From: an uncultured Clostridia bacterium
Lineage (GTDB): Bacteria; Bacillota; Clostridia; Oscillospirales; Acutalibacteraceae
DNA: 50,965 nt
Direction: 5' to 3'
Assembly (NCBI GenBank): GCA_947631855.1
Contig: CANRMX010000011.1
Coordinates: 1 to 50,965, forward strand
Positions 29,406 through 50,771 of this stretch are shown here, piece by piece. The position numbers and the translations under genes are program-made. Below the pieces are notes generated by a model. The model was not told where the DNA came from. It searched no databases and saw nothing but the letters and a program-made list of their open reading frames with translations. Each line of letters opens with the position of its first letter. Positions within the stretch are counted from its first letter, which is position 1.

Positions 29406-29411
29406 TGAATC

Positions 29412-29435
29412 GGTCTCCAGTTTGAATCTGGATAG
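29412..29435 (+). repeat. Partial direct repeat of the tRNA-Thr T arm (possible att remnant)
   Basis: 24 bases match tRNA-Thr 29235-29258 with one mismatch (C to T in the T loop). Duplicated 3' tRNA ends are a classic mark of integration by tyrosine recombinases. It stands directly before the AT-rich region that leads to the polysaccharide operon. Confidence 0.75.
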
Positions 29436-31976: not shown

Positions 31977-31993
31977 AAGACGGGGGTAGAAAC

Positions 31994-33888: not shown

Positions 33889-33898
33889 AGGAGAAAAC

Positions 33899-35023: not shown

Positions 35024-36166
35024 ATGGCAAAAGTTTTATTCCTCAATCCATATTATTATCCCGGGTTCCGTTCGGGCGGGCCTCAGCGGACGTTGATGAA
35101 TATTGCGGATGCTTTCGGCGAACAACAGGAGATTTATATCCTTACCCAAAACTGCGATTTTGGCAGTTCAGATAGCTACGATGTGGAGACGCACAAATGG
35201 ATCCGTGTCGGAAACGCCAATGTAATGTACCTACCACCAAAGGAATACAATATACTCTCTATAAAGAAATATTCCAAAGATTTCGAGAAGGTTTACGCTT
35301 GCGGTTTGTTTTGCGGATGCACGATAAATGCATTACTTTTGCACAAGTTGAATCCGTCTCAAAAGCTATATGTTGCACCGATGGGGGTGTTTTCTGAAGC
35401 GGCAATTGCATCGAAAGCGCCGAAAAAGCGAAGTTTCTTGTTTGTTTTTAAGCACTGTGGATTCTTCAAGAACATCGTGTGGTCTTTTACATCTAAAATG
35501 GAAATATTAGATGCAAAAAAAGTGCTTGGAGATGCAGCAATCCAGGAGTATATCATTGCTGAAGATTTGCCCCGGATGATTGATTTTGAAACGCAGCTAA
35601 GAAGAGCAAGATCGCAGGACATACATCCAGGCGAACCCCTGAAAATTGTCTTTTTATCAAGGATTTCTCCTCAAAAGAACTTGGACTTTTGTGCTGAAAT
35701 ATTGAGAGAAATCAAAGATATAGACATTTACTTTGATATTTACGGAACGATTGAGGATAAGAGTTATTGGGATAAGTGCAGCGGTTTTCTGGATCAATTG
35801 CCGCATAATATTCACTATAGGTATTGCGGTGAAGTAACCCCCGAAAATGTGATCGACACTTTCTCAAAATATGATGTGTTTCTGTTCCCAACAAAAGGGG
35901 AAAATTTCGGCCATGTGATTTATGAGGCACTTGCTGCCGGGTGCGTGCCAATTATCAGTGATAGGACGCCATGGCAGGACTTGGAAGAAGCCAAATGCGG
36001 TTATGTTTTGCCGCTGGTGGAGCCGAATGCATTTAGAAAGGCGATCCAGAGTCTTGCTGTAAGGAAAGCAGAAATCAAAGAAATGAAAATCAATGCCGTT
36101 GAATATACGCGTGAAAAGAGGAGTAGGGCAATTAAGGAATCCGGATATATGCAAGTGTTTTTGTGA
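35024..36166 (+). CDS. GT4 glycosyltransferase
   Basis: 380 residues. GT-B fold: VLFLNPYYYPGFRSGGPQRTLMNIADAF, then a donor domain with IVFLSRISPQKNLDFCAEIL, IDIYFDIYGTIEDKSYWDKC and the E-x7-E motif FPTKGENFGHVIYEALAAGCVPIISD. Starts on the base after the fnlC stop. The donor and acceptor sugars are unknown; it would add the next residue of the repeat unit after or before FucNAc. Lower GC than the preceding two genes. Confidence 0.87.
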   Translation: MAKVLFLNPYYYPGFRSGGPQRTLMNIADAFGEQQEIYILTQNCDFGSSDSYDVETHKWIRVGNANVMYLPPKEYNILSIKKYSKDFEKVYACGLFCGCTINALLLHKLNPSQKLYVAPMGVFSEAAIASKAPKKRSFLFVFKHCGFFKNIVWSFTSKMEILDAKKVLGDAAIQEYIIAEDLPRMIDFETQLRRARSQDIHPGEPLKIVFLSRISPQKNLDFCAEILREIKDIDIYFDIYGTIEDKSYWDKCSGFLDQLPHNIHYRYCGEVTPENVIDTFSKYDVFLFPTKGENFGHVIYEALAAGCVPIISDRTPWQDLEEAKCGYVLPLVEPNAFRKAIQSLAVRKAEIKEMKINAVEYTREKRSRAIKESGYMQVFL

Positions 36167-36192
36167 TAAAAGTGCTCCAAGGTGGGGATGGT

Positions 36193-37464
36193 ATGGGAAA
36201 GAAGATTTCTAAAATCAATCTGATACTTATTAATGCATTTCTTGTGCGAATCATTGTGCTGATTTGTATTGTTGTCTTAGCAGATATGCTTCCGGCTTAT
36301 GGGCTGCGCGGAAACTTTGTCGAGGCCGATGATTACCGCTATGAACAGGGAGCGGTCGAGTATGCTCATTCTGCAGAAGGATTGATCGATGTTGAAACAT
36401 TTACGGAAATATTTGACTCTATGGGAGATCATACCGGGCACCACTTATTTAGCTTGCCGGAGTTTATTTCTTGGTCTCCACTTTGGTATTGGATCGTCTG
36501 CATTTTGGTCTATATAACCAAATGGCGATGGTCCATTCGTATTCTGAATATTTTGCTGGTGACTTTTTCCGTTAAATTCGTGTATAAACTCACGCAATAT
36601 GTTTATGGTGAGAAAACAGCATTATTGGCCGCCAATCTCATGGCGTATTTGCCTTATATTGTGCTTTTTTCCTGCTTTTCTTACAAAGATTGCCTCATCA
36701 TGTTTTGCACCTTTTTCCTGTGGTATTTTTTTGTTAAAAGGAAATACGAGGGTAGCAACACATGGCAAGACTATTCGGGTGTTGTAATTTGTACAGTACT
36801 TCTTTTCTTAACCAGAAGCGGGTTGAGTTTTATTCTTCTGGGCATTTTGCTGGTGTATTATTATTTTGACAAAATATGTGATGTCATAAAAGATGGAATA
36901 AGAGGCCTCAAAGAAAACAGGAGATTCAATAAAAAACTCGTAGGATTGGCTGTAATATTCGTTCTTGTGTGCGTCCTGGTAGTTCTGTACCGAGCTCCTT
37001 TAATGCGGAAGTTTGCTGCATATATTACGAACGATAACAATTTCGAGGGGCTGGGGTTTGGAGCTTTAGCTAAGATCCGTAGCTTTAAGGACATATGGAA
37101 GCTTCCGTTGACATTGACACTTGCTATCCTGCAACCAATCGGATTTGATGGAGGAATAGCGTCATGGGGTAACCTCATCAGTGTTGTGAACATTGTGATG
37201 TGCCCTGTTGCAGTTGGATGTTTACTATACATCATCCGACGGGATAAACCGGATAGGCCGTGTTTTTGGTTTATGATGCTGTATTACATGATCAGTGCAG
37301 TACCGTCTGTACTGATTTTCAGGCATCTGTTCAGCGTCTTGCCGATACCTTTAATTGCTTGCAGTGACTTTCTTTCGAGAGCCAGTGCAAAGCAGAGAAA
37401 ATGGTGGATGGCCTTGTCTGGATGTTTGATGCTCGCAGTAGCAGCGGTATTTGTTTTTACATAA
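36193..37464 (+). CDS. Polytopic membrane protein, candidate oligosaccharide polymerase (Wzy-like)
   Basis: 423 residues from the ATG at 36193 (GGTGGGG site 3-9 bases upstream; a GTG at 36163 overlapping the previous stop is the alternative). About 9-10 hydrophobic segments, with a soluble loop after the first (ADMLPAYGLRGNFVEADDYRYEQGAVEYAH... to FISWSPLWYW). WSPLWYWIVCILVYITKWRWSIRILNILLVTF resembles GT39-like and polymerase-like membrane proteins of surface-polysaccharide loci. Sequence similarity between polymerases is low, so the call rests on topology and position. Confidence 0.6.
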   Translation: MGKKISKINLILINAFLVRIIVLICIVVLADMLPAYGLRGNFVEADDYRYEQGAVEYAHSAEGLIDVETFTEIFDSMGDHTGHHLFSLPEFISWSPLWYWIVCILVYITKWRWSIRILNILLVTFSVKFVYKLTQYVYGEKTALLAANLMAYLPYIVLFSCFSYKDCLIMFCTFFLWYFFVKRKYEGSNTWQDYSGVVICTVLLFLTRSGLSFILLGILLVYYYFDKICDVIKDGIRGLKENRRFNKKLVGLAVIFVLVCVLVVLYRAPLMRKFAAYITNDNNFEGLGFGALAKIRSFKDIWKLPLTLTLAILQPIGFDGGIASWGNLISVVNIVMCPVAVGCLLYIIRRDKPDRPCFWFMMLYYMISAVPSVLIFRHLFSVLPIPLIACSDFLSRASAKQRKWWMALSGCLMLAVAAVFVFT

Positions 37465-37548
37465 GCGCACGGTATATGAGCTCTTGATGATTCGGACAAA
37501 AAGGGGTATTGCCTTTAAGTCGGAGTCGGGTGGAAATAAGGGTGATTT

Positions 37549-38709
37549 ATGTTGTACGATATTCTTAAAATTGGGGTTGTTTTTTTACTCCGCACAATTT
37601 TGAAAATTTTCTGGATTCTCCCTGTTAAACAGAACCGAATATTGTTTTTCAGTTTTTTTGGGAAACAATATTCTGATAATCCTAAATACCTTTGTACGGA
37701 ATTATCCGCACGATCTATGGAGTATGAGATCGTTTGGGCGTTGAACGATCCAGAAAAATGGAAGGCATACATACCGCAAAGTTATAAAGTGATACCTGCC
37801 AAAGGCATGCGGTTTCTTCTCTATGCTTTAACAGCTAAAGCAGTTGTTACAAACAGCAGCATCTCCTCTTATATCCCGATTCGGAAAAGCCAGATTCTCT
37901 TGGAAACATGGCACGGAGGCGGCGGACTGAAAAGATGTGACCCAAATGGCACATATGATAAGTTCACGTTTATGATTGTTGGGAACGAGGTGAGCGGCGT
38001 GGTGGAAAGTAGCCGCTTTGTCACAGAAGAACTTTTCAAAAAATCTTTTGGATATACAGACTGTGACTTTATCCGTTCCGGAATGCCGCGAAACAGCATT
38101 TTATATACGAACAACGACGAGATACGCCAAAAAGTTTATGACTACTTTGGTGTGGAGGACATAGAAAATACAGCGTTGCTTCTATATGCGCCAACGTTTA
38201 GAAATTCTTTTCAGAATGCAGTCTTCCTTCAATCGGAAGAAAAATTGGACACGGTAAGTTTACTGAATAAGCTTGAAAAGAAGTTCCAAAAGAGATTTCT
38301 CTTGCTATTTCGTGCGCACCATTCTTTTGCCGAAGGTTTTTCTGACACAGATTATCTTGACGCGACAAATTATCCAGATGTCCAGGAACTGCTGTATGCG
38401 TCCGCAGTGCTGCTCACGGATTATTCTTCATGTATGTGGGACATGAGCCTGATGAAAAAGCCGATATTCCTTTATACGCCGGATCTGAATGATTATTTAA
38501 GCGAAAAAGGTTTTTATTGTGATTTTTTGAATTTGCCTTTTCCTATTGCAAGAGATCAGGCCACTCTGGAAAAAAACGTTTCCGAATTTGATCAAGTCTC
38601 CTATGTGAAAAAAGTGGGGGCATATCTGAGTGAAATGGGAAGTTATGAAAGCCCTGATTCGGCAAAAAAAGTTTGTGACTGGTTAGTAAATAGAATGCAA
38701 GCTAAATAG
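37549..38709 (+). CDS. CDP-alditol:polyol-phosphate transferase (TagB/TagF/TarL-like)
   Basis: 386 residues. Glyphos_transf family: an N-terminal membrane-associated stretch, KQNRILFFSFFGKQYSDNPKYLCTEL, LLETWHGGGGLKRCDPNG (catalytic His), FIRSGMPRNSILY, LLYAPTFRNS, LFRAHHSF and LLTDYSSCMWDMSLMKKPIFLYTPDLNDYLSEKGFYCDF. Members attach glycerol- or ribitol-phosphate from a CDP donor to a teichoic acid or capsule glycan at the cytoplasmic membrane face. The following three genes appear to make the CDP-alditol donor. AAGGGTG precedes the ATG. Confidence 0.87.
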   Translation: MLYDILKIGVVFLLRTILKIFWILPVKQNRILFFSFFGKQYSDNPKYLCTELSARSMEYEIVWALNDPEKWKAYIPQSYKVIPAKGMRFLLYALTAKAVVTNSSISSYIPIRKSQILLETWHGGGGLKRCDPNGTYDKFTFMIVGNEVSGVVESSRFVTEELFKKSFGYTDCDFIRSGMPRNSILYTNNDEIRQKVYDYFGVEDIENTALLLYAPTFRNSFQNAVFLQSEEKLDTVSLLNKLEKKFQKRFLLLFRAHHSFAEGFSDTDYLDATNYPDVQELLYASAVLLTDYSSCMWDMSLMKKPIFLYTPDLNDYLSEKGFYCDFLNLPFPIARDQATLEKNVSEFDQVSYVKKVGAYLSEMGSYESPDSAKKVCDWLVNRMQAK

Positions 38710-38746
38710 CATACAGTCAGTATAACGTGCAGGAGGGTACTAAAAA

Positions 38747-39448
38747 ATGACAATCGGACTGATACTTTCCGGTGGCATCGGAAGTCGGATGGCGACAAAC
38801 GGAATTCCAAAACAGTATCTTTCACTCTGTGGTCATCCTATCATATCCTACTCTCTACAAACATTTGACGCCCACCCCAGCATTGCAGAAATGGTGATCG
38901 TTGCGGACAAGATCTGGCAGGAGCAGATCACAGAATGTATAGATCGAAGTCACATAACAAAGCCTGTTTTCTTTGCTGATCCGGGTGAGACGAGGCAGTA
39001 CTCTATATTCAACGGACTCAAAAAAATTGTACAATCGTGTACGAATACGGATTATGTGATTATCCACGATGCCGCACGGCCCCTGGTCAGTGGGAAACTG
39101 ATCTCCAGGTGCCTCGGTGCGTTGTTCGGCCATGACGGAGTGATGCCCGTACTGCCAGCGAAGGATACCTTTTATTTAACGGATGGGCACGGGAAAGTTG
39201 TCCAGCTTTTGAACCGTTCCGCGCTGGCGGCGGGGCAGGCACCGGAAGCCTTTGTATTTCAAAAATATTATGAAGCCCATCTGAAAACACCTCGAAAAGA
39301 GTTGTTGAAGATCAACGGAAGTACAGAGATTGCTGTGTTGAACGGGTTTGATATCGTGACAGTCGATGGGGACGAACGCAATATCAAAATCACAACCTCA
39401 AGCGATCTCACTTTGGCAGAGCAGTATATGAAAGAGGCGAAGAGATGA
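38747..39448 (+). CDS. IspD/TarI-family cytidylyltransferase (alditol-phosphate activation)
   Basis: 233 residues. Nucleotidyltransferase fold: LILSGGIGSRMATNGIPKQYL (CTP-binding G-G-x-G-x-R), DYVIIHDAARPLVS (metal Asp), LNRSALAAGQAPEAF and VDGDERNIKITTSSDLTLAEQYM. The family includes IspD and TarI. Being locked by an ATGA overlap to a polyol dehydrogenase next to a TagF-like gene argues for a TarI-type role: CTP plus alditol phosphate gives CDP-alditol. GGAGG lies 9 bases before the ATG. Confidence 0.88.
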   Translation: MTIGLILSGGIGSRMATNGIPKQYLSLCGHPIISYSLQTFDAHPSIAEMVIVADKIWQEQITECIDRSHITKPVFFADPGETRQYSIFNGLKKIVQSCTNTDYVIIHDAARPLVSGKLISRCLGALFGHDGVMPVLPAKDTFYLTDGHGKVVQLLNRSALAAGQAPEAFVFQKYYEAHLKTPRKELLKINGSTEIAVLNGFDIVTVDGDERNIKITTSSDLTLAEQYMKEAKR

Positions 39449-40497
39449 AAGCGCTGGTATTGGAAGATATAGGAAAGCTTGAGTATAAAGATGTACCAGA
39501 CCCGTCTGTGGGATCCGGTGAGGTACTGCTGAAGGTACAAGCCTGCGGCATTTGTTCCAGCGACATCCCTCGGATATTTACAACGGGCACTTATCATTTC
39601 CCAACAGTCCCGGGGCATGAGTTCGCTGGAGAAATCATTGCATGCGGACCAGGGGTGGACAAAGGACTGATCGGACGTCGTGCCGCAGTGTTTCCTCTTT
39701 TGCCCTGTGGAAAATGCGATTCCTGCCGAGAAGAGGAATACGCCCGATGCTCTGATTATAATTATTTTGGTTCCCGCTGCGATGGGGCCTTTGCAGAGTA
39801 TATTGCGGTTCCTGTTTGGAATCTTGTACTCTGTTCGGACCGAATACCGTATTCGACGGCGGCCTTGTGTGAGCCGGCCTCTGTTGCCAAGCACTGCGTG
39901 GATGCGGGAAAAATTCGAGTTGGGGAGACTGTTGCCGTTATAGGGACGGGGACGATTGGGCTGCTAGCGGCATTGTGGGCCAAGATTCAGGGCGCGGAAA
40001 AGGTGATCACAGTAGGAAGGTCGGACAAGTGTTTTGCCTTTGCCAAGTCTTTGGGAATAGACTGTACCATTGATTCTTCCCGAGACGATTCCCTAAATCA
40101 GCTTCTGAATCTCACGCAGGGCAGGGGTGCCGATGTGGTCCTCGAATGTGTGGGCAGGCCTGAGGCAATCAGCAACGCTATACTTTACGCCAAAAAAGGC
40201 GGTCGGGTCGTGCTGACAGGCAACCCTTACGGAGATATTTGCCTCAACAAGGATGTGTACTGGAAGATCCTGCGAAACGAACTCACGGTGACAGGGACCT
40301 GGAATTCCAGCTACAAGTCCTCCGTTAATAATTGGCGTGAGACAGTGGAGGCTCTGGAGACCGGGAGGCTGCATATAGATCGACTCATCACGCATAAATT
40401 TCCGTTGGAGCGGTATAAAGAAGCCCTTGATACGGTGCGGAATCCGGGGATTTTCTCATTAAAAGTGATGTTTGAGCCAGAGGGAGGAAAAGTATGA
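39445..40497 (+). CDS. Zinc-dependent polyol-phosphate dehydrogenase (TarJ/GatD-like)
   Basis: 350 residues, medium-chain dehydrogenase. Catalytic zinc region GICSSDIPR...PGHEFAGEI (Cys, His, Glu), structural zinc cysteines in LLPCGKCDSCREEEYARC, and cofactor site VAVIGTGTIGLLAALWAKIQGA. Closest in style to galactitol-1-phosphate 5-dehydrogenases. By context it reduces a pentulose 5-phosphate to a pentitol phosphate for the cytidylyltransferase. It overlaps both neighbours by ATGA, a strong sign of one pathway. Confidence 0.88.
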   Translation: MKALVLEDIGKLEYKDVPDPSVGSGEVLLKVQACGICSSDIPRIFTTGTYHFPTVPGHEFAGEIIACGPGVDKGLIGRRAAVFPLLPCGKCDSCREEEYARCSDYNYFGSRCDGAFAEYIAVPVWNLVLCSDRIPYSTAALCEPASVAKHCVDAGKIRVGETVAVIGTGTIGLLAALWAKIQGAEKVITVGRSDKCFAFAKSLGIDCTIDSSRDDSLNQLLNLTQGRGADVVLECVGRPEAISNAILYAKKGGRVVLTGNPYGDICLNKDVYWKILRNELTVTGTWNSSYKSSVNNWRETVEALETGRLHIDRLITHKFPLERYKEALDTVRNPGIFSLKVMFEPEGGKV

Positions 40498-41165
40498 ACA
40501 AAGCAAAAATATCCGTTTCCATGATGTGTTCAAACCTGGTGGACCTGAAGCGGACTGTGGAGATTTTTGAAGAAGAACATATAGAGTATCTGCATATTGA
40601 TGTAATGGACGGCAGTTTTGTACCAAATTTTGGCTTGGGTTCAGATTATATTCGGGGACTGAGAGAGTTGACGAATATCCCGCTGGATATTCACATGATG
40701 GTGACGTCTCCGGAATACAAATTCCGTTGGATTGGAATACGGGAAACGGACATCGTATCGATCCACTACGAGAGTACCACGCAGATTCAACGGGCGTTGG
40801 ACTGGCTGGCAGAGATAGGGTGTCGGCGCTTCCTGGCAATTAATCCGGCGACGCCCATCTATGTTTTGGAAGAAGTACTAGATTATATAGATGGAATCAA
40901 TTTACTAATGGTAAATCCAGGCTTTGCCGGGCAGAAGATCGTGCCAAGCACATTGAAAAAAGCGGAAAAGCTGATGTTGTTTTTGAAAGAGCACGGCAAG
41001 GAAGATATTCAGGTTGAAGTAGATGGAAATATAACGTTTGAGAACGCGAGTAAACTTCGGCATATCGGGGCAGACATTTTTGTCGCAGGGACGTCGAGCG
41101 TATTTCTCGGTGCAATAGATTCTTACAGGAAAAACATTCTGGAGTTAAAAAAAGCCATAAATTAA
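40494..41165 (+). CDS. Ribulose-phosphate 3-epimerase-family protein
   Basis: 223 residues, TIM barrel. Rpe motifs are intact: HIDVMDGSFVPNFGLG (metal His and catalytic Asp), LDIHMMVTSPE, INPATPIYVLEEVLDYIDGINLLMVNPGFAGQK and VEVDGNITFENASKL (second catalytic Asp). It interconverts ribulose 5-phosphate and xylulose 5-phosphate or a close analogue. Location inside the CDP-alditol module, with overlapping start, suggests it supplies the specific pentulose phosphate to the dehydrogenase rather than serving central metabolism. LMVNPG replaces the more usual MSVNPG. Confidence 0.88.
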   Translation: MNKAKISVSMMCSNLVDLKRTVEIFEEEHIEYLHIDVMDGSFVPNFGLGSDYIRGLRELTNIPLDIHMMVTSPEYKFRWIGIRETDIVSIHYESTTQIQRALDWLAEIGCRRFLAINPATPIYVLEEVLDYIDGINLLMVNPGFAGQKIVPSTLKKAEKLMLFLKEHGKEDIQVEVDGNITFENASKLRHIGADIFVAGTSSVFLGAIDSYRKNILELKKAIN

Positions 41166-41261
41166 TAAGCTGCCGCAAAAAGATAGCCTAGGGGAAGGAG
41201 TTGCCCGAGCGAGATTCTTTCGTAAGCTTAGAATACATGGATCAAGAAGGAGAGAATGTAT

Positions 41262-42683
41262 ATGAAGGGACGAGGCAAGTATTCGGAATTAACAAAGAAT
41301 ATGCTCGTGCTATTCATAGGGAATCTCTCTTCTAAAGTATTGGTTTTTTTACTGGTCCCGATATACACACGTGTGTTGTCCAGCGCAGAATATGGGGTGT
41401 ACGATCTGTCTGTATCTACGGCTCAGATGATTTTTCCCATTTTATCCCTCAATATTATCGATTGTATTTTACGGTTTGCGCTGGATAAAACGAAAGACGC
41501 AACAGAAGTTTTTCGGATCGCACGGATGATCGTTTCGATTAACTGCGTGTTAGCCGGGATATGTGCGTCTCTTATTTTCTTTTTGAGCCCGCAAAATGAG
41601 ATCAAGGAACACATTTGGCTGATCCTTCTGTATTACATCTTCTATTCCTATAATCAGATGTTTCTACAAGTGGTAAAGGCCATTGACCGTGTAAGCGCAA
41701 TTGCAGCGACTGGGTTTGTCAGTTCCATTGTTCTTTTTGGCACCACTTTCCTTTTTCTCTTTCCTATGCAGCTGGGTTTAAAGGGCTTTTTCCTATCCAA
41801 CATATTGAGCCAGTGCTCGTCGTTCGTAATGTATCTATTTGCTTGTAGGTCAATATGGATTCACAAGTTGCGTAAATCTACATGGGACAAGATGCTATGT
41901 CTCAGTATGTTGAAGTATTCCGTACCCTTGATTGCGATAACGCTTTGCTGGTGGGTAAACAGTAATGCGGATAAATACGTAGTTTTAGCTTTATGCGAAG
42001 TTTCCGTAACGGGCTTACTAGCGACTGCATACAAAATCCCCAATGTGTTAAGCGTGCTGTCTGGGATTTTTACACAAGCATGGCAGATTACAGCAATTAA
42101 GGAATATGATGCCCAAGAAGAAACCGGAGCATTTTATACTTCTGCTTTTTCCAAACTTAATTTTGTAGCTTGTTCCGGTATAGCAATTTGCATTCCTTTG
42201 ACAAAAATATTCGCCACGATTCTTTTCGCAAAAGAGTTTTATGAGGCATGGACATTTGTTCCTTTCCTGTTGGTAAGTGTTCTATTTACAGTAGCATCCG
42301 GATTTCTCGGTCCGATTTTAACCGCAGGCTATCAAGTTAAAATGATCACGATCTCCGGGTTAGTCGGAATGATTCTCAATGTGGTGCTGAATATAGGGCT
42401 TACTCTTTTAATAGGGCCACAGGGCGTTGTAATCGCTACAGCCATTTCGAGTTTCGCTATTTTTTTCGTTCGCTTATATGCGATGAAGGGCAAAGATTTT
42501 CATTTCGGGAAAAGGAACGGCTTTGCCTGGTGCTTGGTTGTGCTCTCTGCAGTCAGTTATGTGTTTTTTGATTTTGAATGGATCAGTCTGGTATTAAGTT
42601 TACTCACGATCGCCCTTTTTTCAAAGGATATTCAAGACACATTTATGATGCTTAAAAAAGCAATATCTGCTCAGAGGAAGTAG
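41262..42683 (+). CDS. Oligosaccharide flippase (Wzx, PST/MVF family)
   Basis: 473 residues with about 12-14 membrane helices: NMLVLFIGNLSSKVLVFLLVPIYTRVLSSAEYGVYDLSVSTAQMIFPILSL at the N terminus is the usual Wzx opening. Later parts include YSVPLIAITLCWWVNSNADKYVV and TKIFATILFAKEFYEAWTFVPFLL. It flips the undecaprenyl-linked repeat unit outwards. The start at 41262 is 9 bases from GGAG; an ATG at 41256 is only 3 bases away. Last gene of the operon, followed by a hairpin at 42767-42800. Confidence 0.92.
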   Translation: MKGRGKYSELTKNMLVLFIGNLSSKVLVFLLVPIYTRVLSSAEYGVYDLSVSTAQMIFPILSLNIIDCILRFALDKTKDATEVFRIARMIVSINCVLAGICASLIFFLSPQNEIKEHIWLILLYYIFYSYNQMFLQVVKAIDRVSAIAATGFVSSIVLFGTTFLFLFPMQLGLKGFFLSNILSQCSSFVMYLFACRSIWIHKLRKSTWDKMLCLSMLKYSVPLIAITLCWWVNSNADKYVVLALCEVSVTGLLATAYKIPNVLSVLSGIFTQAWQITAIKEYDAQEETGAFYTSAFSKLNFVACSGIAICIPLTKIFATILFAKEFYEAWTFVPFLLVSVLFTVASGFLGPILTAGYQVKMITISGLVGMILNVVLNIGLTLLIGPQGVVIATAISSFAIFFVRLYAMKGKDFHFGKRNGFAWCLVVLSAVSYVFFDFEWISLVLSLLTIALFSKDIQDTFMMLKKAISAQRK

Positions 42684-42766
42684 ATAAGTACTGCACCTCT
42701 CCCATCATTCCCTCCACACTTTCTCGCCCGAGTTCAGATTTCTATTTTCCCCCCGCTTGCCCTCTC

Positions 42767-42800
42767 TTTCAGAATGATTACTCTCAACATCATTCTGAAA
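42767..42800. terminator. Hairpin ending the polysaccharide operon
   Basis: Perfect 12-base stem with loop TACTCTCAAC; it is followed by GGGGGG rather than T residues, so termination efficiency is uncertain. Confidence 0.45.
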
Positions 42801-42844
42801 GGGGGGAAGCTTTGTTTTTTGCGCAACTTATTGAACTCTATCCC

Positions 42845-42873
42845 TTGACACCCCCGAATAAAAGTTCTATAAT
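42845..42873 (+). promoter_or_regulatory. Promoter P1 of the TerB operon (full consensus)
   Basis: TTGACA (42845-42850), exact 17-base spacer, TATAAT (42868-42873). The transcript leader would be about 185 bases. Confidence 0.85.
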
Positions 42874-42907
42874 AAATCAGAAACTTCGTTCCCGGACCTG
42901 GACCCCG

Positions 42908-42936
42908 TTGCAATCCGGGAGAAAATCAGGTATAAT
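42908..42936 (+). promoter_or_regulatory. Promoter P2 of the TerB operon
   Basis: TTGCAA (42908-42913), exact 17-base spacer, TATAAT (42931-42936), 63 bases downstream of P1. Confidence 0.75.
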
Positions 42937-43064
42937 CAAAAGGGCTGTAAGGCTTGCCGCCCGCAGGTCGATCCGTTCACCGACTGGGCAAGCTGTTATC
43001 AGAGATCGCCGGCGCGTCTGAACGCACGCTCGGGGATTAGGCGCCGCGCTGCTGGGAGGCTGTT

Positions 43065-44708
43065 ATGGGTGCAGAGGGCAAAAAATATGAACCGCTCCAA
43101 ATTCCCGCCCGTCGGCCCAGCCCGGACGGGCAGCCTTCCGCGCTGCCGAAAAGCGGGGAGAACCCGCCCTCCGGCGACGGTCTGTTCTACGAGATCGACT
43201 ACGACGCCTCACCCATCGAGGGCGTGGGGAAGTATGTTCTAAAGCCCGAGCCCATCCGGCCGCCCAGCCGGGACGCCCTGCGGGACCGCTTCTATCAAAT
43301 GCGGGAGCTGGCCCGCCGGGAGCACCTGCCGTTCCTCAATGCCTCCCGGTTTTACGATCAGCGGGTGCAGCGGGAGAACGCCCGCATCTTCTACAAGCAG
43401 GCGGTGTTCATGGCGGATCTTGAAGACGACTATCCCGACGAAGCGCCTTTTTCCGCCTATTTCCCGGACTATCAGCGGATGGGCTACGAGCAGCTGCGCA
43501 CCTATTTCACCTGGCGCGCCCGGGTGCGGCGGGGCGAGGTGCGGCCCATCCCGCTGTCCTATGGATTCCTGTACATCTACGAGCTGCTGAACAATATCGG
43601 CGTGGCTGATCCCCAGGAGGGGCTGGAGCGGCTGATGGACTTCTGGCTGGCGTTTCGGGCATTCGAGCCGGATGTGGACAAATACGTGCCGCGGTGGCTG
43701 CGGGATTATCACATCTATTATCCGCTGGACCATACCTTCCGGGAATTCGCGGAGTCCCGGGGGCTCACCGAACGCTACCCGGAGCTGGCCGGGCAGGGCG
43801 AACCATTTGCCCGGCTGTGCAGCCTGTCCCGCTACGACGTGCGTAGATCCGGCTTTTTCGCCGGGGAGACGGCTGCCCTGCTGGCCGAAGGTATCCTTCG
43901 GGTGATGGGGCAGGTGCGTGGGGCGCTGCAAGCTGCCGGCATCGCCCTGGAGGGCTCGCTGTTCTATCCCGTGAAGCAGAACGCCCCATGGACGCCCTTT
44001 AAGGGCGCGCTTTTTCATGATTGGCTTCGCCAACCCGACAGAAAGATTCAGCTTTCGGAGGACGAATTGTACCTGTGCAGCGGGCACAAATGGTACCGCA
44101 ACACGGCGCTCTCCACGGACAAAGGGCGGCGGCTGGTCGGGTATGTGATGAAGGAGACCGAGGCCGTTTTGCGGCGGGCGATGCACTATAAATACAAACT
44201 CACCGCCAACGTGGATTCCGTCGATCCGGGGCTTCTGGCGGCCCTGCAAAAGGCGGGGCTTTCGCTGGAAACCATCGTGGAGCAGGCCGCGCTGGCGTAT
44301 TATCGGGAGGCCACCAAGGTGGTGGTGGCGGTGGATGCTTCTTCTCTCAACCGCATCCGCCAGGAGGCCATGGCCACCCAGGCGGCGCTGACGGTGGAGG
44401 AGGAACCCGCTCCGCCGCCGGTGTATGCAGCCGTGGAACTGACCCCCGCTTTGCCGGATTCCGGCTGGGACGCGCTGCGGGAGGCCCTCAGCGATGCGGA
44501 ACGGGCTGTGCTGGCATCGCTGCTCCGTGGGGAGAGCCTGGCGGCGGTGGCAGCGCGGCAGGGCATGATGCCGGAGGTGCTGGCGGACGGGATCAACGAA
44601 AAGGCTGTGGACACGGTGGGCGACAGCCTGCTGGACGGAGAACTGGCGCTCTATGAAGACTATCTGGAACCGGTCAAAGGAATGCTGGAGGGAATGGTGA
44701 AGGAATGA
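43065..44708 (+). CDS. TerB_N/TerB_C domain protein
   Basis: 547 residues. A Pro-rich disordered N terminus (about 1-70) precedes a TerB_N-like region (about 75-290) with FSAYFPDYQRMGYEQLRTYFTWRARVRRGEVRPIPLSYGFLYIYELLNNIGV and DYHIYYPLDHTFREF. The C-terminal part (about 460-545) resembles TerB_C: LSDAERAVLASLLRGES, AARQGMMPEVLADGINEKAVDTVGDSLLDGE, ALYEDYLEPVKGML. The central TerB domain itself is not obvious. These families were described as part of Ter-linked stress and DNA-processing systems. GGGAGG lies 7 bases upstream. The stop overlaps the next start (ATGA). Function unknown; probably the sensor or scaffold of the triad. Confidence 0.8.
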   Translation: MGAEGKKYEPLQIPARRPSPDGQPSALPKSGENPPSGDGLFYEIDYDASPIEGVGKYVLKPEPIRPPSRDALRDRFYQMRELARREHLPFLNASRFYDQRVQRENARIFYKQAVFMADLEDDYPDEAPFSAYFPDYQRMGYEQLRTYFTWRARVRRGEVRPIPLSYGFLYIYELLNNIGVADPQEGLERLMDFWLAFRAFEPDVDKYVPRWLRDYHIYYPLDHTFREFAESRGLTERYPELAGQGEPFARLCSLSRYDVRRSGFFAGETAALLAEGILRVMGQVRGALQAAGIALEGSLFYPVKQNAPWTPFKGALFHDWLRQPDRKIQLSEDELYLCSGHKWYRNTALSTDKGRRLVGYVMKETEAVLRRAMHYKYKLTANVDSVDPGLLAALQKAGLSLETIVEQAALAYYREATKVVVAVDASSLNRIRQEAMATQAALTVEEEPAPPPVYAAVELTPALPDSGWDALREALSDAERAVLASLLRGESLAAVAARQGMMPEVLADGINEKAVDTVGDSLLDGELALYEDYLEPVKGMLEGMVKE

Positions 44709-46021
44709 CGCAGCAGGTACCTGTACGGATCGCGAATATTTTGATCAACGCCCTGAAAAGCGGCGTGGTGCCTCGGGTGGGCCTGGAATACATCACGGTG
44801 GGCCGCACCCAGGAGATCGCCGCCATTCTCCGGGACATCGAGATGATCGAGGAGGGCGGCGCGTCTTTCCGCTTCATCGTGGGCAAATACGGCAGCGGCA
44901 AGAGCTTCCTGCTCCAGACCATCCGCAACTACGCCGTGGCCAAGGGCTTTGCGGTGGTGGATGCGGACCTCTCTCCCGAGCGCCGGTTTGCTGGCACCAA
45001 GGGGCAGGGGCTGGCCACCTATAAGGAGCTGTTGCGCAACCTGTCCACCAAATCCAAGCCCGATGGCGGCGCCCTGCCGCTGATTTTAGAGCGTTGGATC
45101 TCGGGCATCCAGGCCGGGGTGAAAGCCGAGACCGGCGCGGAGGGTGCGGAATTTGACGCGCTGGTGGAGCAGAAAATTTACGCCGTGGCGAGTTCGCTGG
45201 AAGGGATGGTCAACGGCTTTGAATTCGCCCGGGCGGTGGTGCTCTATTGGCGGGCCTACCGGGAGGACGATTCCGCCCTCAAATCCAATGTGCTGCGGTG
45301 GTTCCGGGGCGAATACCCCACCCGGAAGGAGGCCCGGGAGGAGCTGGGGATCAACTTCATTGTGGGCGACGACACCTGGTACGATTTTCTCAAACTCTTC
45401 GCGGCCTTTCTGGTGGGCGCGGGCTACAAGGGGATGCTGGTGATCATCGACGAGCTGGTGAATATCTATAAGATCCCCAATTCCATCACCCGTGCCAACA
45501 ACTACGAAAAGATCCTCACCATGTATAACGACGCGCTGCAGGGCAAGGCCGGGCACATCGGCTTTCTGATGGGCGGCACGCCCCAGTGCATCGAGGACAG
45601 GTACCGGGGCGTGTTCAGCTATGAGGCGCTGCGCTCACGGCTGGCGGAGGGACACTTTGCCACCGATTCCCTCAAGGACCTTTCCGCGCCCATCATCCGC
45701 CTGCAAATGCTCTCCCAGGAGGAGATGTACATCCTGGTGGAAAAGCTCCGGGACATCCACGGGCAGCTCTATCGCTACACGCCCAGACTGGGCCACGAAG
45801 ACCTGCTCTATTTCCTCACGGTGGAGTACAACCGGGTGGGGGCCGAGACCCACATCACGCCCCGGGAGATCATCCGGGATTTTATCGAGCTTTCCAATAT
45901 CCTGTACCAGAATCCCGCCCTCAGCGTGGCGGAGGTGCTGGGCAGCAACAGCTTCGAGATGGCCAAGGGCGGGCTTTCCGATGAGGAGCTCCACAGCGAA
46001 TTTCAGGAATTTGAGGTATAA
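44705..46021 (+). CDS. BrxD-like P-loop ATPase (DUF2791 family)
   Basis: 438 residues. Opens RIANILINALKSGVVPRVGLEYITVGRTQEI, typical of the BREX ATP-binding DUF2791 family. Walker A VGKYGSGKSFLLQ (G60-S67), then DLSPERRFAGTKGQGLATYKELLRNL, Walker B GMLVIIDEL (D249, E250) and a sensor-like GFLMGGTPQCIEDRYRGVFSYEALRSRL. The C-terminal lid includes ITPREIIRDFIELSNIL. In BREX type 2 and related systems this ATPase (BrxD) is paired with helicase BrxHI, as here. It should act on DNA in the cytoplasm. Stop is 5 bases before the helicase start. Confidence 0.87.
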   Translation: MTQQVPVRIANILINALKSGVVPRVGLEYITVGRTQEIAAILRDIEMIEEGGASFRFIVGKYGSGKSFLLQTIRNYAVAKGFAVVDADLSPERRFAGTKGQGLATYKELLRNLSTKSKPDGGALPLILERWISGIQAGVKAETGAEGAEFDALVEQKIYAVASSLEGMVNGFEFARAVVLYWRAYREDDSALKSNVLRWFRGEYPTRKEAREELGINFIVGDDTWYDFLKLFAAFLVGAGYKGMLVIIDELVNIYKIPNSITRANNYEKILTMYNDALQGKAGHIGFLMGGTPQCIEDRYRGVFSYEALRSRLAEGHFATDSLKDLSAPIIRLQMLSQEEMYILVEKLRDIHGQLYRYTPRLGHEDLLYFLTVEYNRVGAETHITPREIIRDFIELSNILYQNPALSVAEVLGSNSFEMAKGGLSDEELHSEFQEFEV

Positions 46022-46026
46022 AAGCG

Positions 46027-48225
46027 ATGAATGTGTTTGACCGCTTTGCCCCGTTTATTCAGGATTTCATCTACCGGAGCGGCTGGGAGGAGCTCAGAGG
46101 CATCCAGGTGGCCGCCGCGGAGGTGATCTTCGACAGCGACGACAACCTGCTGCTGTCCTCGGGCACGGCCTCCGGCAAGACCGAGGCCGCCTTTCTGCCC
46201 ATCCTGACGGAGCTCTACAACCATCCGTCCCGTTCGGTGGGGGTGCTGTACATCTCGCCGCTGAAGGCGCTGATCAACGACCAGTTTATCCGGCTGGATC
46301 AGCTGCTGCAGGATTCCCACATCCCGGTGACCAAGTGGCACGGGGACGCCTCCCGTTCCCAGAAGGAAAAGCTGGTCAAGCATCCCCAGGGGATCTTGCA
46401 GATCACCCCCGAATCTCTGGAGAGCCTGATCACCGGCAGGCGGGGCGCGTGCCTCAGCCTGTTCAGCGACCTGCGGTTCGTGGTCATCGACGAGGTGCAC
46501 TACTTCATGCGGGACGTGCGGGGCGTCCAGCTGCTGTGCGTGCTGGAGCGCCTGATGCGCCTCACCGGCGCAAATCCCCGGCGGGTGGGGCTCTCTGCAA
46601 CGCTGGGGGACGTCAGTCTTGCCCAGCAGTGGCTGAACACCGGCACCGGCTGCACCTGCGCCGCGCCCATAGTGGAGGAGGGCAAGAGAAAAGTGGGCCT
46701 GCACGTGGAGCGCTTCGTCAACTACGCCGACAAGCGGGACACGGAGAACACCGGCGACGGCGACAATTCCCTTTCCGCCGACAACGCCGGCACCCGGGAG
46801 CATTTTGAATACCTCTTCCGGCACACGCTGGACAAGAAGACCATCATCTTCACCAATTCCCGGGAGGAGACAGAATTCGTCATCGCCAACCTGCGGGAGA
46901 TCGCCCTGCGGCACAAGGCCCCGGACGTGTACCGGGTGCACCACGGGAATGTCTCCGCCCTGCTGCGGGAGACCACCGAGGAGGAGATGAAAGCCGAGGA
47001 GGAAAAGATCGTCACCGGGGCCACTGTGACGCTGGAGCTGGGCATCGACATCGGCTCGCTGGATCAGGCGGTGCAGATCGGCACGCCCTATAATGTCTCC
47101 AGCTTCGCCCAGCGATTGGGCCGGTGCGGGCGACGGGGACAGGTGCCCCAGCTGCTGTTCACCTTCGTGGAGAATATCAAGATCAATTCCGAGGACACCC
47201 TGGGCCCCATCAATTGGGATTTTATCCGCACCATCGCCATCATCCAGCTCTACCTCAAGGAGCATTGGATCGAGCCCATCCCGCCGCTGCACCACGCCTA
47301 TAATCTGCTGTACCATCAGACCATGAGCACCCTCAAATCGGCGGGGGAGATGTCCCCGGCGGCCCTGGCCCAGTCCATGCTGACCCTGGGCCCCTTCCAA
47401 GAGATCACCAAGGAGGATTACCGGGAGCTTCTGCGGTATCTGCTGGAGATCGGCCAGCTGGAAAAGACCGAGCGGGGCGGGCTGATCATCGGCAGGGAAG
47501 GGGAGAAGGTGGTCAATTCCCACAAGTTCCTCACGGTGTTTCTGGCGCCGGAATATTTGCTAGTGAAGGATGAAAACCGCACCATCGGCACGGTGGACAA
47601 GGTGTATCCGGTGGGGGTGCGGTTTGCCCTGGCGGGCATGGCCTGGGAGACTGTGGACGTGAACGTGAAATCAAAAGTGATCTTCGTCAAGCGGGTGCCG
47701 GGCATCTCGCTGGTGGATTGGGACGTGGATTTTGAGAACGAACTCCACACCGTGCTGGTGCGCAAGCTGCGGAGCATCCTCCTCAGCGACGAGGACTTCC
47801 CCTATCTGAGCCTCCGGTGCAAGGAGCGGCTGGAAGAGATCCGCTACATCACCCGGAACAGCGGCGTCCTCCACAACATGGTCACACCGCTCTCAAACAA
47901 AAAATTCGCCATTTTCCCCTGGGTGGGCACCCGCCAGCTGATCACCCTGCAGTATGCGCTGCTCCACCGTGGCGTCAAGAACCGCCATCCCTGGCCCACC
48001 TGCATCTATCTGGAGGCGGTTTTCGACGGGCCGGGCGAGGAGCTGGAAGCCCTGCTGCGGGAAATTCTCCACACTGACCTGGACCTGTACGAGCTCCCTC
48101 TGCCCGACAAGGTGCAGCTTTTGGGGAAGTACAATGAATTCGTCCCGCAGCACCTGCTGCGCAAGCAGTATATTGAGGACTTTCTGGATTTCAAGGGCTT
48201 GCAAAGCGCCCTCAGCGATTTTTGA
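46027..48225 (+). CDS. BrxHI-like superfamily II DEAD/DEAH helicase
   Basis: 732 residues with complete SF2 motifs: Walker A SSGTASGKTEAAFLPIL (G46-T52), YISPLKALINDQF (Ia), ITPESLESLIT, DEVHYFM (motif II, D155-H158), LSATLGD (III), IIFTNSREETEFV (IV), TLELGIDIGSLDQAVQIGTP (V) and QRLGRCGRRGQ (VI, Q362-G371). About 350 further residues form an accessory C-terminal region. Similar to BrxHI and Lhr-type helicases in layout. AAAGCG is the only weak site, so translation is probably coupled to the ATPase gene. The operon ends at the terminator 48262-48293. Confidence 0.93.
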   Translation: MNVFDRFAPFIQDFIYRSGWEELRGIQVAAAEVIFDSDDNLLLSSGTASGKTEAAFLPILTELYNHPSRSVGVLYISPLKALINDQFIRLDQLLQDSHIPVTKWHGDASRSQKEKLVKHPQGILQITPESLESLITGRRGACLSLFSDLRFVVIDEVHYFMRDVRGVQLLCVLERLMRLTGANPRRVGLSATLGDVSLAQQWLNTGTGCTCAAPIVEEGKRKVGLHVERFVNYADKRDTENTGDGDNSLSADNAGTREHFEYLFRHTLDKKTIIFTNSREETEFVIANLREIALRHKAPDVYRVHHGNVSALLRETTEEEMKAEEEKIVTGATVTLELGIDIGSLDQAVQIGTPYNVSSFAQRLGRCGRRGQVPQLLFTFVENIKINSEDTLGPINWDFIRTIAIIQLYLKEHWIEPIPPLHHAYNLLYHQTMSTLKSAGEMSPAALAQSMLTLGPFQEITKEDYRELLRYLLEIGQLEKTERGGLIIGREGEKVVNSHKFLTVFLAPEYLLVKDENRTIGTVDKVYPVGVRFALAGMAWETVDVNVKSKVIFVKRVPGISLVDWDVDFENELHTVLVRKLRSILLSDEDFPYLSLRCKERLEEIRYITRNSGVLHNMVTPLSNKKFAIFPWVGTRQLITLQYALLHRGVKNRHPWPTCIYLEAVFDGPGEELEALLREILHTDLDLYELPLPDKVQLLGKYNEFVPQHLLRKQYIEDFLDFKGLQSALSDF

Positions 48226-48261
48226 CGAATCGCGCTTGGACTCACACTCCGGCACAAAGAT

Positions 48262-48293
48262 ACCGCCGCAGGAACCTCCCCGCGGCGGTTTTG
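48262..48293 (+). terminator. Terminator of the TerB operon
   Basis: Stem ACCGCCGC / GCGGCGGT with loop AGGAACCTCCCC followed by TTTT, between convergent genes. Confidence 0.8.
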
Positions 48294-48300
48294 ATATGCT

Positions 48301-48765
48301 TTACAGTGTGATCCGGTACCGAATCTCCGCTTCCTCAAACGTGGGGTCGTCCAGATCGGTCACCACCACGCGGTCCAGCGCTTCCAGGGCCGCGGAGGCT
48401 TTTTGACATGCGCCTGTGAAAGCGGCGTTGCTGGCGTCGTTGTCCGCCGCGATGGTCACCTCCAGTGGCTTGGAGACGCCTCGCGCATAGCCGAGCACGG
48501 CGTCGATCAGCCGATAGGACAGCCCCTGGCCCCGATGGTCGGGCAGGATACCGATCTGCCAGATAAACACGGCGGAGGGAGCTTCCAGGGCCGTGATGAA
48601 CCCCACCGGCCGGCCATCCTGCTCCAGCACGAAGCTGCTTTTCCCATGGTACTTGGCCAGGACCCAGTAGGTATAGGGCGTGTGCACGTCCAGCGGCGGG
48701 CACAGCTGTGCCAGGCGGCGAAGCCGCGGGGCGTCGGATTCCGTAGCGTTTCTCAAAGTATACAT
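48301..48765 (-). CDS. EctA-like GNAT acetyltransferase
   Basis: 154 residues. The sequence follows diaminobutyrate acetyltransferase (EctA): LRNATESDAPRLRRLAQLCPPLDVHTPYTYWVLAKYHGKSSFVLEQDGRPVGFITAL, then AVFIWQIGILPDHRGQGLSYRLIDAVL (motif A around R78-G-Q-G) and TIAADNDASNAAF. EctA makes N-gamma-acetyl-diaminobutyrate for ectoine. EctB and EctC are not adjacent, so a different amine substrate is possible. GGAGG lies 7 bases before the ATG at 48765, and the gene begins 16 bases after the stop of the channel-like gene, forming a two-gene unit. Confidence 0.82.
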   Translation of the reverse strand: MYTLRNATESDAPRLRRLAQLCPPLDVHTPYTYWVLAKYHGKSSFVLEQDGRPVGFITALEAPSAVFIWQIGILPDHRGQGLSYRLIDAVLGYARGVSKPLEVTIAADNDASNAAFTGACQKASAALEALDRVVVTDLDDPTFEEAEIRYRITL

Positions 48766-48781
48766 AGTGTTGCCTCCCAAT

Positions 48782-50701
48782 TTACCGCAGCGTCTTGCGA
48801 ACCACCGCCACGGAGAAATAGCCCACCAGGAACGACCCGATGGAAGTTTCAATGATCGTACAGATGCACACCCAGAGATTGAGCGGCTCGAACTGGGACA
48901 CGAAGGGGATGATGTTGCCCAGGCTGTAGATGATGGACGGCAGCAGATTGCCCGCCCAGCTGCCCGTTTGCAGGGCGCCCAAATTGGCCGCGCCGATGTC
49001 GAAGGCTGCGCTGCCGAAGAGGCAGGCCATGAGATCGTACACGCCGGCAAAGGCCAGGATCGTAACGGCCAGGGAGACGATCACCCGCATGGGGGAGATA
49101 CCGTATTTGCCCACGAAATAGAGCAGGCGGTACAGCCACCGGGTGAGCCCATCGCTCTTTGGCAGGGGATCCTGCTCCCGGGACGTTTTGCGGTAGACGG
49201 AATTGATATAGGGTTTAAACTCCATGTACAGGATGAACGCCTCGTCCTGCTGGTCGTATTTGCCCTGGGCGCTGAAATCCTCGGCCAGCATCACGAAATC
49301 CTTGGCCTTGGTATAGCACAGCAGATTGCGGCATTCGTCCTCCGTGTACTTTCCCCGCCGGTATACGTCGATGTTCTGATTGTTGTAGACCGCCTTGAGG
49401 ATGGGGCTGACAATGTGCTTCCGCTTGCCCGACAGCGTCGTGACGAGGAAATCGCCCCAATCGGCGGCCTCTACGATCTTGCCGTAGTTGCAGGAATCGT
49501 AAAAGGACAGGGCGGACACGTTGCCGATGTAGAGGGTCTTTTGGATTTCGCAGTTCTTGATCAGCAGATAATTGTTTGGACACTCCTCCTGGGGCGAAAG
49601 CCCGGCGTCCGCGAAGCGAACGGGGGCCAGGCAAATTTTCGCCAGGGGCAGGGCCGGGACGTTTTCAAACACGATCTTGGTATCGGTCATCTCCGCGTCG
49701 GTCATGTCGATGGAGGAATCGTCCGCCATCAGCACGTTCTTGAAGCCCAGCACGTGTTCGGCGGCGGGCCGGCTTTTCAGTTCGTCCTTGGGGACGTGCC
49801 AGATGTAGTTTCCCAGCACCGTTTGGAAGAAATTCACAGCCATGTGCCCGAAATTGACATTGATAAAGTCCAGGGAGCGCTGGATGCGGGCGTCCTCGAA
49901 GGAAATCTCCATGTCGGGAGCCTCGCCGTAAAATTCGATATCCCGGAACAGCACGCCGTCAAAGAAGCGCACGTTGCGGAAATCGACCTTGTTGCAGTCG
50001 TATCCGGCGGAGACCCGGGACTTGTCGGCGTCGAATTCAAACACCAGATTGCCCACGTCCAGGCTGCCGCAGAAGGTGGCCTCGCTGAAGCACATGCCCT
50101 TCTTGAAATGGGGGAGGGGAGTCTCGCCGGTCTCGTCCTTGAGGTGCAGGCAGGTGTCCCCATAAAAGACCACCCCGGAGGCGTCGATCTCGCCGAAATG
50201 GAATTCCTCCGTCCCGCGAAACGCCGCCAGAACGCGGTTGATGTCAAAATCCCGCACAGCCGCTGGAGATTCCGCCGAACCCAGCCGCGCCAGATCGATG
50301 GACAGTTCCATGCGCTCCCTGTCAAAGGCGAACACCGTTTCGTCGCCCAACAGCGCGTCCATGGTCAGGGCCGTATCCGGGCACGGATCGGGCGCTTCCT
50401 GATACAGAAAACGGTTGTATTTGTACGGGCGCGGCGTGCCCCGGGTGTGGGCGTAAATGCAGGCGTCCAGTTCCTTGCGCTGGCTGGGCACGGTGTAGAT
50501 GCCCCGGGTCACCGGGTCTACCTTCAAAAACATCCGGCGCTCGCCGTCGAAGCGCTCGTTGAGGAACGCGTCAATGGCAACGCTGCCTCGATGAATATTC
50601 CGTTCCCGCAGCATCCGCTCCAGCTGATCCTCATACAGTCTGCCGGGCGCTTCCCGCACGTAGCGCATGATCTCGATCCACCAGGTTTCTGGTTGCTTCA
50701 T
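48782..50701 (-). CDS. Large protein with repeat-rich soluble part and two-helix channel-like C terminus
   Basis: 639 residues. Residues 1-75 look like a small helical, possibly winged-helix domain (WWIEIMRYVREAPGRLYEDQLERML...). About 150-430 contain degenerate aromatic/aliphatic repeats that read like a pentapeptide-type or beta-helix surface (VDFRNVRFFDGVLFRDIEFYG, LDFINVNFGHMAVNF). Helical segment 440-530 includes YTKAKDFVMLAEDFSAQGKYDQQDEAFILYMEFKP. The C terminus has a membrane helix (about 538-562), a pore-like SIIYSLGNIIPF, then a second helix with ETSIGSFLVGYFSVAVVRKTLR, which closely resembles the end of two-helix K+ channels, but the TxGYG filter is missing. Start at 50701 follows AGGAGGG. 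Confidence 0.75.
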   Translation of the reverse strand: MKQPETWWIEIMRYVREAPGRLYEDQLERMLRERNIHRGSVAIDAFLNERFDGERRMFLKVDPVTRGIYTVPSQRKELDACIYAHTRGTPRPYKYNRFLYQEAPDPCPDTALTMDALLGDETVFAFDRERMELSIDLARLGSAESPAAVRDFDINRVLAAFRGTEEFHFGEIDASGVVFYGDTCLHLKDETGETPLPHFKKGMCFSEATFCGSLDVGNLVFEFDADKSRVSAGYDCNKVDFRNVRFFDGVLFRDIEFYGEAPDMEISFEDARIQRSLDFINVNFGHMAVNFFQTVLGNYIWHVPKDELKSRPAAEHVLGFKNVLMADDSSIDMTDAEMTDTKIVFENVPALPLAKICLAPVRFADAGLSPQEECPNNYLLIKNCEIQKTLYIGNVSALSFYDSCNYGKIVEAADWGDFLVTTLSGKRKHIVSPILKAVYNNQNIDVYRRGKYTEDECRNLLCYTKAKDFVMLAEDFSAQGKYDQQDEAFILYMEFKPYINSVYRKTSREQDPLPKSDGLTRWLYRLLYFVGKYGISPMRVIVSLAVTILAFAGVYDLMACLFGSAAFDIGAANLGALQTGSWAGNLLPSIIYSLGNIIPFVSQFEPLNLWVCICTIIETSIGSFLVGYFSVAVVRKTLR

Positions 50702-50771
50702 AGGCGGCCCTCCTGTTCGTTCTAAACTATTTAACGATCTCACATAATCCCAGACTGCCTCTCACATCCAA

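Follow-up and report, generated by a model that had tools for sequence, protein, structure and literature searches.

Introduction

Shango is a three-gene bacterial defence system, described in Pseudomonas aeruginosa PA14 as a TerB-like protein encoded with an ATPase and a DEAD/DEAH helicase (PMC10250203). There it lowers the plating of many phages by a modest 10-100-fold and protects liquid cultures, and the same paper cites, as its reference 22, an earlier report from Escherichia coli in which the effect was approximately 10-fold and concerned two phages (PMC10250203). In Pseudomonas fluorescens, Shango components rank higher than the 85th percentile for GRP induction (PMC11888443), and the mechanism of the system is entered as unknown in the table of a 2026 review (PMC12926258). 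Here we analyse an operon of this kind, sngA-sngB-sngC, from an uncultured Clostridia bacterium of the family Acutalibacteraceae (assembly GCA_947631855.1, contig CANRMX010000011.1); the window, by which we mean the whole stretch of 50,965 nucleotides that was analysed, is the entire contig 11 of an 81% complete assembly, and the contig ends 2.7 kb past sngC. The evidence for anti-phage activity comes from the P. aeruginosa and E. coli systems, the latter presumably that of Millman et al. 2022; the clostridial loci are examined here by sequence.

A single, potentially distinct clade of superfamily 2 (SF2) defence helicases has been proposed to hold SngC together with BrxHI, DruE and DpdJ (PMC12278908). 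In type 2 Bacteriophage Exclusion (BREX) systems, BrxD and BrxHI form a tight dyad and BrxD is suggested to load or activate BrxHI (PMC12839542, the available text of which makes no mention of TerB or Shango). DruE prefers 3'-tailed DNA and engages intermediates containing single-stranded DNA (ssDNA), according to a preprint (PMC13192584). Since DruE is called YprA-like in that preprint and BrxHI is classed as Ski2-like elsewhere (PMC12839542), the proposed clade is not settled.

The operon itself is already a known system type, and the new element is its regulation. Our analyses suggest that many Shango loci in the Clostridia are linked to the SOS response, either through a LexA box upstream of sngA or through a dedicated repressor of the S24 family. 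Our searches of the openly licensed PMC literature turned up no paper that places Shango under SOS control, which is not proof of absence.

Results

Identity of the operon

The three genes lie on the forward strand: sngA (43065..44708) encodes a protein of 547 aa, sngB (44705..46021) a BrxC/BrxD-family AAA+ ATPase with 438 aa, and sngC (46027..48225) an SF2 DEAD/DEAH-type helicase with 732 aa. An ATGA overlap (44705-44708) joins sngA to sngB and 5 bases separate sngB from sngC, as had been noted in the original prediction, which was made from the DNA letters alone. Each product is matched over most of its length by the corresponding PADLOC model, namely PDLC03958 for SngA (1.8e-68; aa 77-541 of 547), PDLC03959 for SngB (6.7e-178; aa 3-421 of 438) and PDLC03960 for SngC (6.9e-220; aa 3-727 of 732). 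On these matches the triad is virtually certain to be a complete chromosomal Shango system.

The domain content agrees. The TerB_N and TerB_C domains foreseen for the first protein both exceed their Pfam cut-offs, at aa 99-235 (43359..43769; PF13208, 1.2e-29, 104 bits against 25) and aa 414-535 (44304..44669; PF15615, 6.2e-14, 52.9 bits against 26.3) respectively. BrxC_BrxD in SngB (PF10923, 9.5e-160) and DEAD (PF00270) and Helicase_C (PF00271) in SngC are likewise over their cut-offs. SngB has a stretch that we take to be Walker A, GKYGSGKS (aa 60-67; 44882..44905), and another that we take to be Walker B, IIDE (aa 247-250; 45443..45454), in which G60, Y62-S67, D249 and E250 are invariant across nine aligned SngB proteins. 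In SngC, what we assume to be helicase motifs I (GTASGKT, aa 46-52; 46162..46182), II (DEVH, aa 155-158; 46489..46500) and VI (QRLGRCGRRG, aa 362-371; 47110..47139) are similarly constrained, with T47, A48, G50-T52, D155, E156, H158, Q362, R363, G365, R366 and G368-R370 invariant among 30 aligned sequences. Pfam recognised no nuclease domain in any of the three proteins. By sequence, SngB resembles no solved structure; the solved structures nearest to SngC are YprA and two entries named 'ATP-dependent DNA helicase', which we take to be Lhr.

The second and third genes had been read as BrxD-like and BrxHI-like, and such matches do exist, with BrxD second for SngB (2.3e-44) and BrxHI second for SngC (9e-119). 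These matches, and the linkage of BrxD with BrxHI in BREX type 2 (PMC12839542), might suggest what is left of a decayed or pared-down BREX type 2 system that has lost PglZ, PglX, PglW and BrxC. The Shango models, however, score far better (590 against 150 bits for SngB; 730 against 396 bits for SngC), so that the BREX names describe second-best relatives, and the NCBIfam BrxD match of SngB, at 152.3 bits, falls below its curated cut-off of 350. PglZ has no match in the 81% complete assembly, although the DNA directly beyond the contig is not visible, and there is no PglX, PglW or BrxC among the 42 other window open reading frames (ORFs) of at least 150 aa (PADLOC, E up to 1e-10), which matched only MzaA and PDC-S12, each a single member of its system. 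The same order of TerB protein, ATPase and helicase moreover recurs across dozens of genomes, and a BREX remnant is in our view extremely improbable; the separation from BREX drawn in the original prediction holds. That prediction had known of no experimental account of such a triad, but as Shango it has been tested against phages in P. aeruginosa and, according to the same paper, in E. coli (PMC10250203); the P. aeruginosa assays equally favour its suggestion of an antiviral role.

LexA boxes upstream of sngA

The operon is preceded by a sigma-70-type promoter (42845..42873, forward strand) with all 12 consensus positions, TTGACA and TATAAT separated by a 17-nt spacer. Exactly between its -35 and -10 elements lies a candidate LexA (SOS) box, CGAATAAAAGTTCT (42855..42868, forward strand), which matches CGAAC-N4-GTTCG, the form of the LexA box in Bacillota, at 8 of 10 positions. 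This candidate, together with S24 genes standing before sngA in relatives, was the reason for a search for LexA boxes across Shango loci. The loci came from genomes of the family, genomes of the genus and the best 80 of at least 583 confirmed matches in named genomes; the last were picked by likeness to the window SngA and are therefore biased to Clostridia.

Scanned with the Bacillota consensus, 30 of the 85 regions upstream of sngA contained a site of at least 8/10, where shuffles gave 9.4. A Bacillus subtilis-type box was not over-represented in the organism's whole genome (26 sites on each strand; 75 for a backwards control, which has another composition) or in the window, and the matrix was therefore rebuilt from the genus itself, using 50 sites from 57 regions upstream of recA (29) and lexA (28), with no region contributing more than one. 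Its consensus is CAAACATATGTTTG; the organism's own genome has TAAACATTTGTTCG upstream of recA and CAAACATACGTTTA upstream of lexA.

With this matrix, sites of at least 10 bits occur in 31 of the 85 sngA upstream regions, compared with 20 of 365 regions upstream of other genes in the same loci (Fisher p = 1e-12, loci taken as independent). Shuffled regions gave a mean of 3.3 and a maximum of 6 over 60 rounds, and none of 500 column-permuted matrices reached 31 over the 84 regions other than that of the window (mean 4.1, maximum 20). When SngA was clustered at 50% identity, 15 of 32 clusters contained a site, so that repeated counting of a single family does not account for the signal. Within the genus, L115 has a site of 16.9 bits and L114 one of 11.9 bits; L116 and L117 have none.

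A promoter-like site is present in the region in 25 of the 31 boxed loci. The box touches the interval from -35 to 12 nt past -10 in 15 of these 25 (3.8 expected), and starts about 0-12 nt after -10 in ten (1.1 expected). Overlap with the stretch from -35 to -10 alone is not notable (4/25 against 2.3 expected), and the wider interval was chosen after the positions had been seen, so that its p-value is optimistic. Taken together, the enrichment makes LexA control of many clostridial Shango loci quite probable, as predicted from these sites. Outside the Clostridia, a LexA-type site of 10.7 bits, CGAACGTGCGTTCT, stands before sngA in a Paenibacillus locus (L119, upstream of 2262).

S24 repressors as a possible second wiring

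The S24 protein of L036 was compared with the ORFs of loci L013-L107 and L114-L117. An HTH/S24-type repressor gene immediately precedes sngA, in the same orientation, in six loci (L015, L029, L030, L036, L063 and L083), with a spacing that ranges from a 20 nt overlap to a 122 nt gap. The four of these proteins that were scanned all match Peptidase_S24 in Pfam, and the corresponding neighbour in L066 is helix-turn-helix (HTH) only. A GxSM serine motif with an AG dipeptide ahead of it, the marks of a self-cleaving repressor, is found in 6/6. No LexA box of 10 bits is present upstream of sngA in these loci, and the best site upstream of the S24 genes themselves reaches 6.6 bits. All six are among the 85 loci, 37 of which thereby carry an SOS-type signature, whether box or S24 gene. 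We infer that the S24 repressors answer to DNA damage; other cues are possible for such proteins.

Distribution, linkage and conservation

Linkage was surveyed around 94 SngA proteins, each 300 aa or longer; this set excludes the window and two duplicates. SngB follows SngA on the same strand in 86 of 94 loci, within 300 bp in 78 and farther away, within 10 kb, in 8; it is absent from 8, in six of which the contig ends within 1.5 kb. SngC follows SngB in 74 of 86, within 300 bp in 68 and farther, within 10 kb, in 6; it is lacking from 12, and in 6 of these the remaining DNA is shorter than 2.5 kb. The co-occurrence survey called for in the original prediction thus comes out in favour of the triad. 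The A-B-C order is also the same in all four plasmid loci that were opened (E. coli, Paenibacillus, Azospirillum and Sulfitobacter), which were hand-picked from match lists and represent Gammaproteobacteria, Bacilli and, twice, Alphaproteobacteria. The Sulfitobacter locus is given as Shango, with identical coordinates, in PMC10221251.

Across 65 complete triads of normal length, window included, SngA averages 0.395 in pairwise identity, SngB 0.756 and SngC 0.703. The distance matrices are correlated (A-B 0.86, A-C 0.82, B-C 0.95) beyond all 1000 permutations, which, as far as sequence comparison can tell, shows co-inheritance of A-B-C as a unit; co-evolution and shared ancestry are not separated by this measure. 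The best-conserved stretch of SngA includes YEQLRTYFTWR (aa 141-151), within TerB_N.

Shango is patchily distributed. SngA occurs in 14 of 150 family genomes, the organism's own included, although in one of the 14 (G128) the match is partial and weak. SngB is present in 5 of the 29 genomes of the genus, again including its own, the other four at 59-83% identity. A SngB-like match was found in 691 plasmid records, all below 60% identity, of which 542 are predicted conjugative; at least the weakest listed match is annotated as a BREX ATP-binding protein, so not all 691 need be Shango. Viral sequences gave nothing: SngB was matched in none of 50,697 phage records, and peptide patterns did not find it in IMG/VR.

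These patterns bear on two further explanations. A general DNA-repair or stress operon, serving mainly against host damage and conferring phage resistance as a by-product, would account for LexA boxes in 31/85 loci and for the kinship of SngC with YprA and the presumed Lhr entries, whose repair roles we assume. The patchy occurrence (14/150; 5/29) and the plasmid records fit defence better, as do the rapid divergence of SngA and the P. aeruginosa phage assays (PMC10250203), and we regard a repair operon as improbable. The other explanation is an anti-plasmid or anti-conjugation system directed against incoming DNA generally and not phages in particular; the helicase-centred ApsAB can eliminate plasmids (PMC11096173), and SngB-like genes ride many plasmids, most of them predicted conjugative. 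That Shango is itself plasmid-borne nevertheless suggests that it is not generally anti-plasmid, and phage activity has been seen in P. aeruginosa (PMC10250203), which leaves this explanation unlikely. An anti-phage role for the window Shango, by analogy with the assayed systems, is very likely.

We looked for additional components. A conserved fourth subunit was rejected, since ten inserted ORFs from nine loci, lying between Shango genes or after SngB, proved miscellaneous by Pfam; these ten, which are not every insert, comprise flavin reductase, leucine-rich repeat, pectate lyase, HipA_C, YitT and RACo matches and four without a match. In L056, L061, L064, L073, L075, L078, L093, L100 and L102 the Shango genes are 1.3-7.3 kb apart with other genes between. 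A recurrent downstream partner was also rejected, the gene after SngC being on the same strand and within 60 nt in only 15 of 65 loci. The largest neighbour clusters have 8 members, mostly upstream HTH/S24 regulators, and 7 members, which look like ATP-binding-cassette proteins. No strong local defence island was evident among 128 first neighbours, some of them spurious ORFs and considered without a matched control (PADLOC, E up to 1e-20): 19 PADLOC families were matched, each in at most two members, with two neighbours matching MADS models and one pAgo, and the DpdF and PsyrT matches are probably RecQ-like ORFs of L045 and L065.

Individual loci depart from the common plan. On the Sulfitobacter plasmid a PD-(D/E)XK nuclease gene (L121:6015-7721) begins 2 nt past sngC and is a possible extra effector in that lineage; on the E. 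coli conjugative plasmid a Lit-family phage-exclusion gene (L118:179-1102) adjoins the triad. The SngC relative of L046 (7678-9897) is divided between two adjacent ORFs (201 and 532 aa), through a broken gene or an assembly error, and a 923-aa SngA from the family genomes (L025:3961-6732) has two SngA-matching stretches.

Flanking signals and neighbourhood in the window

A second promoter-like site, TTGCAA-17-TATAAT (42908..42936, forward strand; 10/12 consensus), follows the first, so that both near-consensus promoters originally noted were recovered; a scan of 42500-48800 on both strands returned six such sites against 1.7 expected by shuffling. The terminator said to end the operon is present as a GC-rich, terminator-like hairpin with a 12-pair stem (48262..48289), between sngC and a convergent GNAT gene, but the scan reported it on the reverse strand only, where it would serve the convergent gene; on the forward strand the stem is followed by TTTGAT. 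The leader gave no Rfam match and its folding was not better than shuffles (z = 1.42).

The guanine plus cytosine (GC) content of the operon is 0.60-0.64, as against 0.40-0.56 at 29-43 kb, which bears out the contrast first noticed with the adjacent polysaccharide island; the 25-29 kb segment before the island has 0.52-0.65. Within 29113-42683 the island, which has two tRNA genes (Asp, Thr) ahead of it, encodes epimerases, glycosyltransferases, Glyphos_transf, IspD-like and flippase proteins, and stops just short of Shango. Beyond the operon, a 653-aa protein (48782-50743, reverse strand) matches the pentapeptide repeat weakly, short of the cut-off, has hydrophobic segments towards its C-terminus, and finds no match among the 28 other genus genomes.

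Discussion

The explanation that we favour combines Shango, a mechanism centred on phage DNA and frequent damage control in Clostridia, and as a whole it is highly probable. SngC, as a member of the BrxHI/DruE/DpdJ clade, would act on processed or replicating phage DNA, and SngB would load or activate it; that the ATPase loads the helicase is plausible and marginally favoured, by analogy with the idea published for BrxD and BrxHI (PMC12839542). SngA, fast-diverging and with both TerB domains, may be the recognition or adaptor subunit, although its assignment as the recogniser is tentative. Since Pfam recognised no nuclease domain, phage replication is probably blocked or mis-processed, or else the system draws on a nuclease of the host. 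In many clostridial loci the operon would be held down by LexA at a near-promoter box or, elsewhere, by a dedicated S24 repressor, until phage replication or genome injury, sensed through RecA, released the repressor and allowed Shango levels to rise. The preference of DruE for 3'-tailed DNA and its engagement of ssDNA-containing intermediates fit a system switched on by RecA-loading intermediates. That one operon should be tied to a single signal in two ways would imply action on damaged or replicating DNA and a cost when constantly expressed.

Several observations weigh against this account. No box of at least 10 bits and no S24 gene is present in 48 of the 85 loci, and of the three non-clostridial loci scanned only Paenibacillus has a site, E. 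coli and Azospirillum sngA being without one. The window's own candidate box is weak, at 7.0 bits with the genus recA/lexA matrix (p = 0.09 by intergenic shuffling), and a scan of the window with the simple consensus found 17 sites against 24 expected; LexA control of the window operon is accordingly no better than a somewhat doubtful possibility from its sequence. L092 and L106 are SngA-like and without SngB despite nearly 10 kb downstream (they are possible stand-alone SngA relatives), and 6 SngB loci have no SngC despite at least 2.5 kb following, which means that the triad has exceptions. For SngA, sequence comparison gave no solved relative (best E 0.31), and its proposed role therefore draws on divergence rate and domain names. 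Finally, some phages are unaffected by P. aeruginosa Shango (PMC10250203).

With these points counted, we lean towards clostridial Shango as a damage-inducible second line of immunity, repressed by LexA or by a self-cleaving S24 protein, of which the window would keep a decayed box in its core promoter. SOS control is offered as a testable hypothesis for clostridial Shango. An SOS-type operator or repressor in many clostridial operons tells when Shango is needed and hints that its cue is damaged or processed DNA, while the contrast between a fast-changing SngA and slow-changing SngB and SngC points to where specificity may lie.

Comparison with known systems

Several described systems share parts with this locus. 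For the tellurite-resistance (ter) cluster, TerC, TerD and TerE and their partners did not turn up in Pfam scans of window proteins (6 + 10 + 10, one scanned twice), in which no search by name was made. Bunzi and Dionysus are, we assume from their composition, not A-B-C triads. A TerB-type domain like that of SngA is nonetheless present in Bunzi (PMC10952713) and, according to a review, in Dionysus (PMC12926258). The helicases DruE of Druantia and DpdJ of Dpd belong to the same possible defence clade as SngC and BrxHI (PMC12278908); DruE has phospholipase D (PLD) nuclease domains (PMC13192584), whereas Pfam recognised none in SngC. The BrxD-BrxHI pair of BREX type 2 (Pgl) likewise sets an AAA+ ATPase beside an SF2 helicase, but the window has a TerB_N/TerB_C protein instead of the remaining BREX genes and its BREX scores are the weaker ones. 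With Shango, by comparison, the window locus has families, gene order, operon structure and motifs all in common; it differs in SngB, which is 40-42% identical to the listed enterobacterial plasmid forms, and in SngA, which has 547 aa here but, from their coordinates, 769 aa on the E. coli plasmid and 847 aa in Sulfitobacter.

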